Below are positions 1,049-33,265 of a stretch of DNA of 33,265 nucleotides, one piece after another. The position numbers were made by a program, and so were the translations under genes. This stretch comes from an uncultured Bacilli bacterium (GTDB lineage: Bacteria; Bacillota_I; Bacilli_A; RF39; UBA660), in NCBI GenBank assembly GCA_947632275.1, contig CANROR010000004.1:1-33265 (forward strand). Direction: 5' to 3'. Numbering within the stretch: position 1 is the stretch's first letter; every line of letters begins with the position of its first letter. The notes beneath the pieces were generated by a model that saw only the letters and a program-made list of their open reading frames with translations, did not search any database and was not told the origin of the DNA.

Positions 1049-1834
1049 ATGACTAAAATTATATCTTTGGTTAATCAAAAAGGTGGAGTTGGAAAGACGA
1101 CAACTAGTATTAATTTAGCAGCTGCTTTAGGTAAATTAGGTAAGAAAGTCTTATTAATTGATATGGATTCCCAAGGCAATGCGACGACTGGTTTAGGTCT
1201 TAATTCTAACGATTTTAGTCATGATATTTATGAGCTTATCACGGGTAGATGCGAAATAAAAGATGCAATTATTAAAACTAAATTTGAAAATTTAAGTATT
1301 ATTCCGTCTACCATCAATTTAGCAGGAATTGATGTTGAATTTGTTAAAAAAATGTTAGAAGATAACGCTTTTAAACAAAATATGCAATTAAAAATGCGTT
1401 TAGATGCAGTAAAAAAAGATTATGATTATATAATAATTGATTGTCAACCATCATTAGGGTTAGGTACGATGAATGCCTTAGTTGCTAGTGATTCAGTAAT
1501 AATTCCGGTGCAATGTGAATTCTATGCTTTAGATGGAATTGCTTTACTTCTTAATACAATTATAACAATTCAAAGTGGCATGAATCCGAATCTTCGGATT
1601 GAAGGGGTCCTTTTAACGATGCTTGATGGTCGAACTAATATTGGTTTGGAAGTAATTGAAGAAATTAGAAAATATTTTAAAGATAAAGTGTTTAATACGA
1701 TAATACCTAGACTAGTTAGATTAGTAGAAGCACCTAGCCATGGTAAACCAATTAATGAATATGATCCTACTAGTCGGGCAACAGAAGCTTACGCTAATTT
1801 GGCAAAGGAAGTGATTAGTCGCGATGGAAACTAA
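1049..1834 (+). CDS. parA: ParA/Soj chromosome-partitioning ATPase
   Basis: MTKIISLVNQKGGVGKTTTSINLAAALGKLGKKVLLIDMDSQGNATTGLG deviant Walker A; ATG at 1049 follows AAAAGAGGTG, preferred over the 1025 start. Confidence 0.95.
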   Translation: MTKIISLVNQKGGVGKTTTSINLAAALGKLGKKVLLIDMDSQGNATTGLGLNSNDFSHDIYELITGRCEIKDAIIKTKFENLSIIPSTINLAGIDVEFVKKMLEDNAFKQNMQLKMRLDAVKKDYDYIIIDCQPSLGLGTMNALVASDSVIIPVQCEFYALDGIALLLNTIITIQSGMNPNLRIEGVLLTMLDGRTNIGLEVIEEIRKYFKDKVFNTIIPRLVRLVEAPSHGKPINEYDPTSRATEAYANLAKEVISRDGN

Positions 1835-2696
1835 GAAAAAAGCTTTAGGGAAAGGATTAGAACAATTATTTTCCAATTCCGTAATTGATTTTGATAATTT
1901 TGAACAAAGCATCGTGGAAGAAAATTCCAATAACGTGGTTGAAATAAATCTTTCAGATATAAGAAGTAATCCTTATCAACCACGGAAAACTTTTGATGAA
2001 GCTTCTTTAAATGAACTAGCAGCTTCGATTAAAGAATATGGTTTAGTGCAACCCATAATTGTTAAAAAAAGTATTAAAGGTTATGAATTAGTTGCCGGGG
2101 AAAGAAGAACTAAGGCGGCCAAAATTGCCGGCCTTACGAAAATTCCGGCCGTAATAAAAGATTTCACGGATCAAGAAATGATGGAACTAGCCTTAATTGA
2201 AAATATTCAAAGAGAAGATTTAAATCCGATTGATGAGGCGACATCTATTAGTAATATTATTAAGTTAAGGGGATATACCCAAGAAGAATTCGCGGATAAA
2301 ATGGGGAAAAGTAGAAGTTATGTTACAAACTTGTTAGGGCTTTTAAAGTTACCGGAAAATGTGAAAAAATTAGTCGAAAAGAAAAGTATTTCGGCTTCCC
2401 ATGCCCGGGTCTTAAGTAAATTAGATGATGAAGATAAAATCAATGATTTAGCTCATAAAATAATGACCGAAGATGTCAGTGTAAGAGATTTAGAAAAATT
2501 AACTAGTAATATTGAATTACCGAAGAAAAATAAAATTAAAGTAGAACATAATTATCGTTTATTAGAAGATGCGGCTAGTGAGGCTTTAAATACAAAGGTT
2601 AGAATTACGAAAAATAAAATGGAAATATATTTTAATGGTTCGAAAGAACTTAATGAAATACTGGAAAAATTAAATGTAAAAATTGAGGATGAATAA
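1824..2696 (+). CDS. parB: ParB/Spo0J partition protein
   Basis: NPYQPRKTFDEASLNELAASIKEYGLVQPIIV...GYELVAGERRTKAAKIAGL...ALIENIQREDLNPIDEA; overlaps parA by 11 bp. Confidence 0.95.
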   Translation: METKKKALGKGLEQLFSNSVIDFDNFEQSIVEENSNNVVEINLSDIRSNPYQPRKTFDEASLNELAASIKEYGLVQPIIVKKSIKGYELVAGERRTKAAKIAGLTKIPAVIKDFTDQEMMELALIENIQREDLNPIDEATSISNIIKLRGYTQEEFADKMGKSRSYVTNLLGLLKLPENVKKLVEKKSISASHARVLSKLDDEDKINDLAHKIMTEDVSVRDLEKLTSNIELPKKNKIKVEHNYRLLEDAASEALNTKVRITKNKMEIYFNGSKELNEILEKLNVKIEDE

Positions 2697-2697
2697 A

Positions 2698-2910
2698 ATG
2701 GATAAAGACTTTAAATTATTTGATGAAGTCATAATGAAAAAAGACCATGCTTGTGGCACTAATCTTTGGATTATTACGCGAAATGGCGCTGATGTTAAAA
2801 TTAAATGTCGATATTGTGGACGTGAAATAATGATGGATCGTTTAGAATTTATAAAAAAATTAAAAAAGGTGATCAAATTTGAAGAAACTGAAGATGAAAA
2901 AAAAGATTAA
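2698..2910 (+). CDS. DUF951-family protein
   Basis: FDEVIMKKDHACGTNLWIITRNGADVKIKCRYCGREIMMDR; start set at MDKDF. Confidence 0.85.
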   Translation: MDKDFKLFDEVIMKKDHACGTNLWIITRNGADVKIKCRYCGREIMMDRLEFIKKLKKVIKFEETEDEKKD

Positions 2911-4423
2911 TTTACATCCCGTGATGATGTACTTGGTATTGAGCTTAATTGTCATTGTCGTAAGTGGCATTTTGTCGTGGTTTAATGTCCAAGCAACTTA
3001 TAATCAAATTTCCTTAGTTACAGGAGAATATTCGGTAGCAACAGAAACAATAACTTCTTTATTTAGTTTAAGTGGCTTAAAATATATTTTTACCAATACG
3101 GTATCTAACTTTGCTAATTTTACCGTTTTAAGTAATTTAATTATTATTTTACTTGGTATTGGCTTAATGGAAAAAAGTGGTTTTTTAAAAACTTTAGTTA
3201 CTTTATTAACGAAGAAAGCTAAAAAAACAACTGTTACCTTTTTCTTAATATTGATATGTTTACTTGCTAGTATCATGGGTGATTTATCATATTTAATTTT
3301 TATTCCTTTAAGTGCTTTATTATTTTTATATGGTAAAAGAAATCCGCGGTTAGGAATTATCGCTTCTTTTGCGGCTTTAACTTGTGGTTCTAGTTTAAGT
3401 GTTATGTTAACCAGTATTGATTCCAGTTTAATTACGGTTACTAATTTAAACTCTCAAATATTAATTGGTAATTATACGATTAATAGTGGTTCATTTATGT
3501 TTATTATGTTAATTGCTTTAATTATTTTAGCCTTTTTATTAACGAATATAACCGAAAATGTTATTGCTAAAAGAATTGAAAAATATGAATTTGAGGAAGA
3601 AGAAATTGAAGATGAGTTAGTGTTAACTAAACATAAAATGCGAGGGTTATTATTTGCCGCCATCTTTGGTTTAATTTATTTATTAATCTTTGTTTATAAT
3701 ATTATTCCGGGTTTACCTTTCTCGGGGAATTTACTTGATTATAGTCAAAGATTATATATTGATAAATTATTTAGCTATGAATCCTTCTTTAGCAATGGCT
3801 TTGTCTTCATTGTGGCTTTATTTTTTGTCATTTTAGGTTTAAGTTATGGCATTGGGGCTAAGACCATTAAAAATAATCAAGATTTTATTGATGGCTTGGG
3901 CCATTCGTTAAATGGTATTGGGAAGATGTTAGTTATGATTTTTGCCGCCGCCACCTTTATTAGTATTTTTAAACAAGCTAATATTGGGAATGTGGTAACG
4001 GTAGCTTTAACTAATGTTTTAGCTAAGTCCTCTTTTAGTGGTTTACCATTACTGATTTTGTTATTTGTTCTTTCAATGATTGCTACTCTTTTCTTGCCAA
4101 ATAGTTTACCTAAATGGACGATTATGGCCACTGCCGCCGTGCCGGCTTTAATGAATACCGGTGTTTCTCCCGAATTTAGTCAAGTTGCCTTTCGGTTAGG
4201 CGAAGCCGTTTCGTTAGGTTTAACACCAGTTTTTGCTTATTTCATTGTTTATTTAGCTTATTTAGAAAAATATAGTCAAGATAATAAAAATATTAGTATA
4301 TTTAAAGCGATAAAATTACAATTACCATATACCATAGTTACTTTTATTGTTTTCTTAAGTTTAATTATTCTATGGTATATAATTGGAATACCATTAGGCT
4401 TTAATGCTAGTGTTTCATTATAG
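2879..4423 (+). CDS. AbgT/YfcC-like membrane transporter
   Basis: Polytopic membrane protein with AbgT-like segments (SNLIIILLGIGLMEKSGFLKTL, IMGDLSYLIFIPLSALLF, LPNSLPKWTIMATAAVPALMNTGVSPEFSQVAFRLGEAVSLGLTPVFAYFIVYLAY); TTG start after AAGGTGAT, or ATG at 2894. Confidence 0.75.
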   Translation: MKKLKMKKKINLHPVMMYLVLSLIVIVVSGILSWFNVQATYNQISLVTGEYSVATETITSLFSLSGLKYIFTNTVSNFANFTVLSNLIIILLGIGLMEKSGFLKTLVTLLTKKAKKTTVTFFLILICLLASIMGDLSYLIFIPLSALLFLYGKRNPRLGIIASFAALTCGSSLSVMLTSIDSSLITVTNLNSQILIGNYTINSGSFMFIMLIALIILAFLLTNITENVIAKRIEKYEFEEEEIEDELVLTKHKMRGLLFAAIFGLIYLLIFVYNIIPGLPFSGNLLDYSQRLYIDKLFSYESFFSNGFVFIVALFFVILGLSYGIGAKTIKNNQDFIDGLGHSLNGIGKMLVMIFAAATFISIFKQANIGNVVTVALTNVLAKSSFSGLPLLILLFVLSMIATLFLPNSLPKWTIMATAAVPALMNTGVSPEFSQVAFRLGEAVSLGLTPVFAYFIVYLAYLEKYSQDNKNISIFKAIKLQLPYTIVTFIVFLSLIILWYIIGIPLGFNASVSL

Positions 4424-27434: not shown

Positions 27435-28624
27435 ATGAAGAAGATACTTATGAATAAAAATACGGAAATTTTGGATGCTGAATTTGATAGTGCAACTGGA
27501 TTTTTACATATATTTATGATGTCTATAATATTAACTATGCTCCCTATATCTTAAAAAGTTTTTATATGAGTGATGATATTAATGATACGCCTTTTCGAAC
27601 TAACTTAAGTGAATGGTTTAAGGGCCGCGGTATTCCTTCTTGGCGGGATAAATTAGATTTATTATTGCACCGCCTTAATATTACGGCTCCTTATGAACTT
27701 TTAGATAAAGCATTTGGTTTATCTTTATCCGACCAATATTGGTTGAAACCTTATGGTAGTAATATTAAATATGATGATATTAATTTTTTTGATAATGATT
27801 TTGACTATGCCGAATTCATGGAAGCTTCTTTATCAAAAAATAGTAAAACTATAACTAAAGAATCTTCTTTAAAGACGCCCAATAATATCACAGATGGTAT
27901 GTTAAAAAAAGCTTGGATTATTGATAAAGGGATAAGATATTTACTTAAAGGTGGTTATAAAAATGAAACTTTGCAACCTTTTAATGAAGTCTTAGCTAGT
28001 GAAATATGCAAGAGATTAGGATTTAATCATGTCGAATATACTTTAGATACTTATAAAGATATGGTCGTATCTAAATGCCCTTGTTTTATTACCAAAGATA
28101 CGGAGCTTATTACTTGCTATCAAATAAGAAATGATATTAAAAGACATGATAGCATTGAAGACTATGAAGAATATATTAAAAAACTAGAAGAACAAGGTAT
28201 CGAAAATGCTAGAGAAAAAGTGGAAAATATGTATATTTTAGATTTTTTAATTATGAATGAAGATCGGCATTTAAATAATTTTGGTATTATAAGGGATGTT
28301 AATACATTAAAGTGGCTAGATGTTGTCCCAATATTTGATAATGGCCAAAGTCTAAATATTGAGTATTATGATGAAGAAGAATTACATATCTCCGGTGAAG
28401 GCAAATTATTTTATGAAGTAAAACCTTTTGATGAAATAATTAAAGTTGTTAAAGATTTAAAAAGAATTAATATAAATAAGTTAGATGGCTTAGTAGAATG
28501 GTTTGACGATTTATTACATCAATATCAATCTTTAACAGGTTATTCAGATACACGAATAAATCGTTTGTGTATTTTATTAAATCGCCAAATTAATAAATTA
28601 AAACAATTAATTATAGAAGCATAA
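27435..28624 (+). pseudogene. HipA-like kinase-domain protein split by a 1-nt frameshift (N-terminal fragment 27435..27554, main ORF 27566..28624)
   Basis: ATG at 27435 after AAGGAG gives MKKILMNKNTEILDAEFDSATGF then goes out of frame at T5 (27501-27505); the other frame continues TYIYDVYNINYAPYILKSFYMSDDINDTPFRTNLSEWFKGRGIP...; NEDRHLNNFG and PIFDNGQSL HipA-like motifs. Confidence 0.75.
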
Positions 28625-28661: not shown

Positions 28662-29021
28662 TTAATAAGTTTTTTCCGAATAAGCATGCGAATAAATAAT
28701 TGGTTCCATGAATTCTACATAGTTTAAATAAATAATTCGGATTAAGTACCAGTTGTTATTCAAAGGATCCCGAATAATTAAATGATCTTTGCCGGCTTCT
28801 TCAATAACTCCTTCATAAATTTTGTTTTGCCAAGCACTAGAATCGGGATAAGAAACATAGGCTTTAACTTTTTGGCCTTTATTAAGCCGTAGAATGTTTT
28901 CAATAAAACTTTGTTCCATCGGAATCGTCGTTCCTACTTGGGTTGATTCCATATTCCCAGGTGGTGTAGTAAAATTGGTTGATGTTGGAAAGGTCGGATT
29001 TTGATAGAAACTTCCGTTCAA
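28662..29021 (-). CDS. gerQ: spore coat protein GerQ
   Basis: MEQSFIENILRLNKGQKVKAYVSYPDSSAWQNKIYEGVIEEAGKDHLIIRDPLNNNWYLIRIIYLNYVEFMEPI; TTG start after AGGTG. Confidence 0.9.
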   Translation of the reverse strand: MNGSFYQNPTFPTSTNFTTPPGNMESTQVGTTIPMEQSFIENILRLNKGQKVKAYVSYPDSSAWQNKIYEGVIEEAGKDHLIIRDPLNNNWYLIRIIYLNYVEFMEPIIYSHAYSEKTY

Positions 29022-32881: not shown

Positions 32882-32923
32882 TTTTTATTAAAACTTATGT
32901 CTAGTTTTGTCGAAACACTTGCA
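32882..32923 (+). repeat. ~42-bp direct repeat, copy 1 (upstream element containing TTTTGTCGAAA and the -35)
   Basis: TTTTTATTAAAACTTATGTCTAGTTTTGTCGAAACACTTGCA; near-identical to 33224..33265. Confidence 0.9.
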
Positions 32924-32946
32924 TTTCCTTTTTTAACCAATATAAT
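32919..32946 (+). promoter_or_regulatory. sense promoter of the small-peptide cassette
   Basis: TTGCAT-N16-TATAAT. Confidence 0.8.
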
Positions 32947-33051
32947 AGAAAATCGTTACCTTTTAGAGGAGTGCCGTTTAAAGGGGCGTTTTGGTTGTTA
33001 CTCTTTTCTTTTCTAACTTAGTTTAAACAGGTTAAAATAAGGAGGGAATTA

Positions 33052-33135
33052 ATGACTGAAATATATTTTTTAAGACTTTTAGTCTTGTTGCTAGTTTTTA
33101 GGAACTTGCAAATAAAAAATACTCCTCACAAGTAA
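33052..33135 (+). CDS. 27-aa hydrophobic peptide, candidate type I toxin (MTEIYFLRLLVLLLVFRNLQIKNTPHK)
   Basis: Strong SD AAGGAGGG with 5-nt spacing to ATG; hydrophobic core plus polar/basic tail; stop codon inside the terminator hairpin; not in the supplied ORF track because of its length. Confidence 0.65.
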   Translation: MTEIYFLRLLVLLLVFRNLQIKNTPHK

Positions 33136-33185
33136 GGAGTACTTTCTAGAAATAGTAGGTGCTCCCCTTGGTAGGTAACACTTAC
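33108..33185 (-). ncRNA. predicted antisense RNA (~75 nt) convergent with and overlapping the 3' end of the 27-aa ORF
   Basis: Minus-strand TTGCTA-N17-TATAAT promoter at 33220..33192 and a terminator hairpin with T6 at 33141..33114; ends approximate. Confidence 0.65.
33114..33147. terminator. hairpin terminator shared by the convergent transcripts (strong on -, weaker on +)
   Basis: TACTCCT-CACAAGTA-AGGAGTA; T6 on minus strand, CTTTCT on plus strand. Confidence 0.75.
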
Positions 33186-33191
33186 ATTTAT

Positions 33192-33220
33192 ATTATAAGA
33201 AAAACATCTTCCTTTAGCAA
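33192..33220 (-). promoter_or_regulatory. antisense RNA promoter
   Basis: Reverse complement reads TTGCTA-AAGGAAGATGTTTTTCT-TATAAT (17-bp spacer). Confidence 0.8.
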
Positions 33221-33223
33221 GCG

Positions 33224-33265
33224 TTTTATTAAAACTTTATGTCTAGTTTTGTCGAAATGCTTGCA
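33224..33265 (+). repeat. ~42-bp direct repeat, copy 2, truncated by the window end
   Basis: TTTTATTAAAACTTTATGTCTAGTTTTGTCGAAATGCTTGCA; differs from copy 1 by one indel and two substitutions. Confidence 0.9.

Follow-up and report, generated by a model that had tools for sequence, protein, structure and literature searches.

To our knowledge, the trigger or purpose of chromosomal type I toxins is rarely known. The systems closest to the locus described here differ in the position of the antisense RNA, which lies at the leader in hok/Sok, covers the 5′ part in the aapA/IsoA modules of Helicobacter pylori, and overlaps the 3′ end in txpA/RatA and bsrG/SR4 of Bacillus subtilis. For the latter two systems, we know of no direct Spo0A box. 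In the Gram-positive Fst/par system of pAD1 (RNA I/RNA II), the two convergent small RNAs have a common terminator, an overlap that lies outside the open reading frame (ORF), and DRa/DRb repeats (PMC4147584). Toxin expression that is tied to sporulation or to Spo0A has been described in B. subtilis for spoIISABC and yqcG (PMC6562991). A partial search of the literature yielded no description of a type I toxin under direct Spo0A control.

The locus examined here is located at 32882-33223 in a 33,265-nt stretch of DNA, the whole of which is called the window, and is one of 12 such cassettes in its genome. An earlier sequence-only reading of this DNA had considered it a candidate type I toxin-antitoxin cassette with an Fst/par-like layout.

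Anatomy and distribution of the cassette

Every element named in that reading is present. On the plus strand, the promoter of the putative toxin gene has the -35 element TTGCAT (32919-32924; relatives carry TTGCAA or TTGAAA there) and, after a 16-nt spacer, the -10 element TATAAT (32941-32946), which is found in 58/74 cassettes. The transcript would begin with a 5′ leader arm, GTTACC...GGAGTGCC (32955-32975), that is complementary to a distal 3′ arm (33155-33179). Between them lies a predicted stem (32999-33046) in which a leader anti-SD sequence hides the Shine-Dalgarno (SD) sequence AAGGAGGG (33039-33046), and an SD-like motif precedes the ORF in nearly all copies. The ORF (33052-33135) starts with ATG at 33052 and has 27 codons, and its TAA stop codon (33133-33135) is within a TACTCCT/AGGAGTA stem. 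It encodes the 27-aa hydrophobic peptide MTEIYFLRLLVLLLVFRNLQIKNTPHK, the putative toxin. The leader also contains, at about 32980-32997, a G-rich motif that is conserved in most copies. It consists of GGGG and then TTTTGG, and it separates the 5′ arm from the SD stem.

The minus strand carries an opposing promoter with the -35 element TTGCTA (33215-33220) and the -10 element TATAAT (33192-33197) at a spacing of 17, both of which are conserved in copies. Given the position of this -10 element, it would produce an antisense RNA of about 74 nt (33112-33185) with two hairpins, the putative antitoxin. The 5′ hairpin is formed by the minus strand of the distal arm (33155-33179), and the second is a terminator hairpin with a T-run (33113-33148) that lies over the last ORF codons.

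The cassette is the first of a tandem pair that is interrupted by the end of the contig. Over its last 77 nt, the window is identical to the beginning of reverse-complemented contig C95, on which the second tandem copy lies. The second cassette therefore begins inside the window, where its start forms the 42-nt repeat at 33224-33265. Tandem pairs and arrays are a feature of the family, with up to four copies at one locus (L080 in genome G303), and the cassettes lie in intergenic DNA. Remnants exist in the same genome as well. At C74:3747-3924 (L011), the toxin ORF has been lost and the antisense hairpin kept, which leaves an antitoxin-only remnant, and contig C17 holds a promoter/leader remnant.

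A DNA search of the same genome yielded two near copies plus several weaker ones, and the 12 copies noted above were recovered with a covariance model built from the 3′ part. A search of related genomes, which had been proposed as a check, recovered cassettes in 25/30 genomes of the genus with up to 13 copies each. The cassettes are homologous, and their counts are therefore not counts of independent events. At the level of the order, cassettes were found in 39/386 sampled genomes and 8/119 genera, all of one family, and there was no match outside that family in samples of 397 genomes of the class and 299 of the phylum. An exact DNA pattern matched 31 loci in a collection of named genomes, all of them in metagenome-assembled genomes of uncultured Bacilli/Tenericutes, for example a genome from water-buffalo omasum and the 'Lapin' bins. 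The cassette was absent from viral contigs in a single exact pattern scan, and Rfam 15 provided no match at gathering scores. This is a previously undescribed, multi-copy family in uncultured gut Bacilli.

A hydrophobic ORF of 20-31 aa occupies the same place behind an SD-like motif in 71/79 cassettes. Conservation of its reading frame, the loss of which had been named as grounds for rejecting the cassette, is evident from 170 equal-length ORF pairs, some of which have members in common and are not independent events: dN/dS is 0.36 in the predicted frame versus 0.68 and 2.23 in the other two, and pN is lower than pS in 164 of the pairs. Judging from this substitution pattern, the hydrophobic ORF is coding and under purifying selection. 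No convincing peptide family match emerged from Pfam, NCBIfam, PADLOC or PHROGs, and no profile match connects the cassette peptides with txpA or bsrG. The best hit was MgtU (NCBIfam, E=0.0012, 3/35 members), which we judged to be a generic hydrophobic match and rejected. The earlier impression that the peptide is unlike Fst and Ldr agrees with the profile searches, in which 35 peptides compared with Pfam and NCBIfam matched neither family at E up to 1, and the accompanying guess of a new family has held up in the databases searched.

Folding of the sense and antisense RNAs

The sense RNA at 32949-33189 has a predicted folding energy of -72.4 kcal/mol (z = -5.6), and 0/200 dinucleotide shuffles were as stable. 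In the structure of lowest energy, the 5′ leader of the folded copies is base-paired to the distal 3′ arm. Cognate leader and distal arms pair at -31.0 kcal/mol versus -22.7 kcal/mol for non-cognate arms, an effect that is weakened by automatic leader detection, which misplaced a few copies (e.g., L029, L030 and L070). The pairing is also stronger on the sense strand than on the opposite strand. When covariation was counted with corrected leader placement, 180/200 cells at the variable outer positions of the helix could pair, compared with a mean of 149 and a maximum of 164 in 2000 shuffles. Two-sided compensatory changes in this helix include C-G to T-A as well as T-A/C-G, and the neighbouring tandem copies at L066 display a T-G to C-G change. 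No terminator that would set the mRNA 3′ end was found on the sense strand, and from the covariation we infer that the mRNA extends to the distal arm.

The 3′ arm of the terminator hairpin can instead pair with the distal arm, and covariation is seen there too. It is therefore likely, given these modeled pairings, that the mRNA switches between two states. The hairpin arm also includes a shorter stretch that directly repeats the leader. The SD is predicted to be largely sequestered, with an unpaired probability of 0.13 in the window copy and, among 64 cassettes, a mean of 0.23 with the leader versus 0.46 without it. This hiding is independent of the distal arm, because the SD has an unpaired probability of 0.18 when that arm is removed. 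The folding models are consistent with a structured mRNA whose SD is hidden, as is typical of type I toxins.

On the opposite strand, the -10 element differs from TATAAT by no more than one mismatch in 71/72 copies, and the -35 element is mostly of the TTG type at 17 nt (72 copies). In most copies, the antisense RNA folds to a 5′ hairpin and a terminator. For the antisense RNA of the window copy, z is -4.6 with 0/200 dinucleotide shuffles as stable, and the ORF ends inside its terminator, which takes in the last codons and the stop. A run of at least five U in the 8 nt after the hairpin is present on the minus side in 46/72 cassettes and on the plus side in 2/72. Because the U-run is a property of the minus side only, the two transcripts do not have a common terminator. 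Hence, the antisense RNA of about 75 nt ending at the hairpin that the sequence-only reading had proposed agrees with our analysis, and its claim that both transcripts share this terminator does not. A conserved promoter, a two-hairpin RNA and a terminator are features expected of the antisense gene of a type I system, and the cassette appears to have all three.

The cassette is unlikely to be a chance arrangement, given that both RNA folds are more stable than their shuffles and that homologous cassettes exist in the same genome and its relatives. Its proposed type I anatomy is likewise upheld by a selected hydrophobic ORF, a conserved antisense RNA, a self-closing mRNA and tandem multi-copy loci.

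Spo0A boxes at the toxin promoter

A feature that went unmentioned in the earlier reading is a tandem pair of Spo0A (0A) boxes on the toxin promoter. In the window, these are the upstream box TGTCTAG (32898-32904, plus strand) and the consensus box TGTCGAA (32908-32914, plus strand), the latter located 26 nt before the -10 element. The segment that includes both, TGTCTAGTTTTGTCGAA (32898-32914), is 5′ of the -35 element and is among the most conserved parts of the cassette. Experimental work has established TGTCGAA as the core 0A box (PMC3485338). In the family, the pattern TGNC-N6-TGTCGAA is upstream of the toxin -35 element, with an exact TGTCGAA in 52/72 toxin promoters and one within a single mismatch in 65/72. 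The box is present in 0/71 antisense promoters and 2/72 leader control windows. Its distance to the -10 element is 26 nt in 50/74 cassettes. Some copies have degenerate boxes, and L066 and several copies from other genera (L078-L084) have a distance of 31-32 nt, some of them with several TCGAA-like boxes.

The tandem pattern has 14 matches in the genome that provided the window, and a reversed-pattern control has 0. Ten of these matches are at cassettes or the C17 remnant, which correspond to nine distinct places because a contig overlap doubles one. The others are one before spoIIAA, one before ppdK and two in coding sequence. The ppdK match (C23:2820-2836, L122) places tandem 0A boxes directly 5′ of a pyruvate-phosphate-dikinase-like gene, which is a candidate Spo0A target. 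The spoIIAA promoter has an exact box and a -10 element starting 26 or 27 nt later in 29/29 genomes of the genus with an identified spoIIAA gene, and these 29 boxes are 29 of only 32 TGTCGAA sequences in 185 kb of strand. The operon in this genome comprises spoIIAA, a SigF-type sigma gene, spoVAC and spoVAD. At 1501-3330 of its contig C29 (L126), no spoIIAB lies between spoIIAA and the sigma gene, and RF39 bacteria have been described as having spoIIAB reduced or absent (PMC10868615).

The window also includes a gene for the spore coat protein GerQ (28662-29021, minus strand; PF09671, E=4e-30), so the organism carries sporulation genes despite its 1.14-Mb genome. At 27566-28624 (plus strand), the window encodes a HipA_C-like protein with E=1.4e-6, which is below the Pfam cut-off. 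Spo0A itself is encoded in the genome (E=1.1e-38), and its recognition helix is SRVERAIRHAIE, which we take to be the B. subtilis sequence. The protein was found in 26/30 members of the genus and, beyond the genus, in 22/22 genomes that carry cassettes. Within the genus, it was not detected in the cassette-bearing genomes G150, G162, G163 and G169, and only a fragment was found in G170, all five of which are drafts that are 67-93% complete. The five genus genomes without a detected cassette all keep Spo0A, and for this reason the cassette is best viewed as an accessory of the Spo0A regulon. With a TGTCGAA box at the promoter and Spo0A in the genome, the cassette is a predicted member of that regulon.

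Possible function and relationship to known systems

Because the boxes are on the toxin promoter only, are spaced as they are at spoIIAA, and occur in a genome that encodes Spo0A, we consider it probable that the cassette represents a new family of type I toxin-antitoxin modules, in which Spo0A directly activates the promoter of the toxin. In such a module, the antisense RNA would be made constitutively and would bind the 3′ part of the mRNA to keep the peptide off during growth, and the self-locking of the mRNA would also hold the putative toxin off. On starvation, Spo0A~P would rise, toxin transcription would increase, and the mRNA would come to outnumber the antisense RNA. Excess mRNA that is opened by processing or refolding could then be translated, and the peptide might act in the membrane to cause a growth stop or killing within the starvation/sporulation programme.

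A different possibility is that the product is not an intracellular toxin but a small, Spo0A-controlled membrane peptide that serves in development or signalling, such as a SpoVM-like helper, a pheromone or a cannibalism-type secreted peptide, and that the antisense RNA only fine-tunes its expression. The skf and sdp peptides of B. subtilis are driven by Spo0A in this manner. Moreover, the boxes are present, the peptide is under selection, and the host sporulates, as judged by GerQ in the window and the spoIIAA-sigF-spoVAC-spoVAD genes. However, the many divergent tandem copies per genome, the lack of the cassette in 5/30 genus genomes that all have Spo0A, the antitoxin-only remnant on C74 and the heavy locking of the mRNA are better suited to an intracellular toxin, and we regard such a developmental role as unlikely. 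The assignment of the boxes could also be questioned, since it is made from sequence and Spo0A is both a repressor and an activator. A different regulator might bind TGTCGAA, or Spo0A might bind it to repress transcription, and in either case the cassette would encode a stress, phage or maintenance type I toxin that is not induced at sporulation. Yet the box, its tandem spacing and its distance to the -10 element match the spoIIAA promoter of the same genus, and Spo0A is present in every cassette-bearing genome outside the genus, which makes this option quite improbable.

Multiple intergenic copies, inverted arms and tandem arrays are also what a MITE-like mobile element would present, with the arms as transposon ends and the ORF as incidental. 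The dN/dS value in the predicted frame, the stronger pairing on the sense strand and the conserved promoters and terminator all count against this proposal. Selection on the ORF and strand-specific pairing largely rule it out, and we give it almost no credence.

Returning to the Spo0A-activated toxin, the promoter boxes suggest a built-in toxin that is coupled to the sporulation decision. The cassette promoter would in effect name the trigger, since most of the 12 loci in a 1.1-Mb genome have the box and spacing of spoIIA/sigF on the toxin promoter and not on the antitoxin promoter. If true, type I toxins would be tied directly to a developmental decision, a little-known lineage of sporulating gut bacteria would gain a testable Spo0A target, and Rfam and Pfam would be missing a new RNA/peptide family. 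A broader proposal, whose chances we see as evenly divided, is that these type I toxins form a large and fast-diverging family, with as many as about 13 members in a 1-Mb genome, that belongs directly to the Spo0A regulon of reduced-genome gut Bacilli. The toxins would be fired with spoIIA/sigF at sporulation entry to arrest cells, kill siblings or enforce commitment.

None of our comparisons assigned the cassette to a known family. Among known systems, Fst/par shares with the cassette its convergent small RNAs in a Gram-positive organism and its short hydrophobic peptide. Unlike par, the cassette has a terminator on the minus strand only and an overlap that runs into the ORF, and its dominant repeat is inverted (leader versus distal arm) and pairs inside the sense RNA. 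The Fst/par layout proposed earlier must therefore be abandoned, and membership in that group is ruled out by the unshared terminator, the ORF overlap, the lack of DRa/DRb-type antisense complementarity and the absence of an Fst/Ldr match. The txpA/RatA and bsrG/SR4 systems resemble the cassette in having an antisense RNA that overlaps the 3′ end and an SD in a stem, but they differ in their longer toxins and in their sites on the skin element and the SPbeta prophage. A link to sporulation or Spo0A is shared with spoIISABC and yqcG, although these are type II systems with protein antitoxins and the control of yqcG is indirect via SinI/SinR and DegU. As in hok/Sok, the 5′ end of the mRNA folds back onto its 3′ end, but the antisense RNA of the cassette is at the 3′ end. 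The aapA/IsoA systems are similar in being multi-copy chromosomal modules with a peptide of about 30 aa and an antisense RNA, and in having 5′-3′ long-distance pairing that renders the full-length mRNA inert and local stems that hide the SD (PMC6733600). They differ from the cassette, which has no Rfam 15 match at gathering scores, whose antisense RNA covers the 3′ end, whose promoter has 0A boxes and whose host is of another phylum. By analogy, the cassette would seem to work most like aapA/IsoA and hok, with an mRNA closed from 5′ to 3′ end (PMC6733600), and its 3′-overlapping antisense RNA appears to resemble those of Gram-positive systems (PMC4147584).
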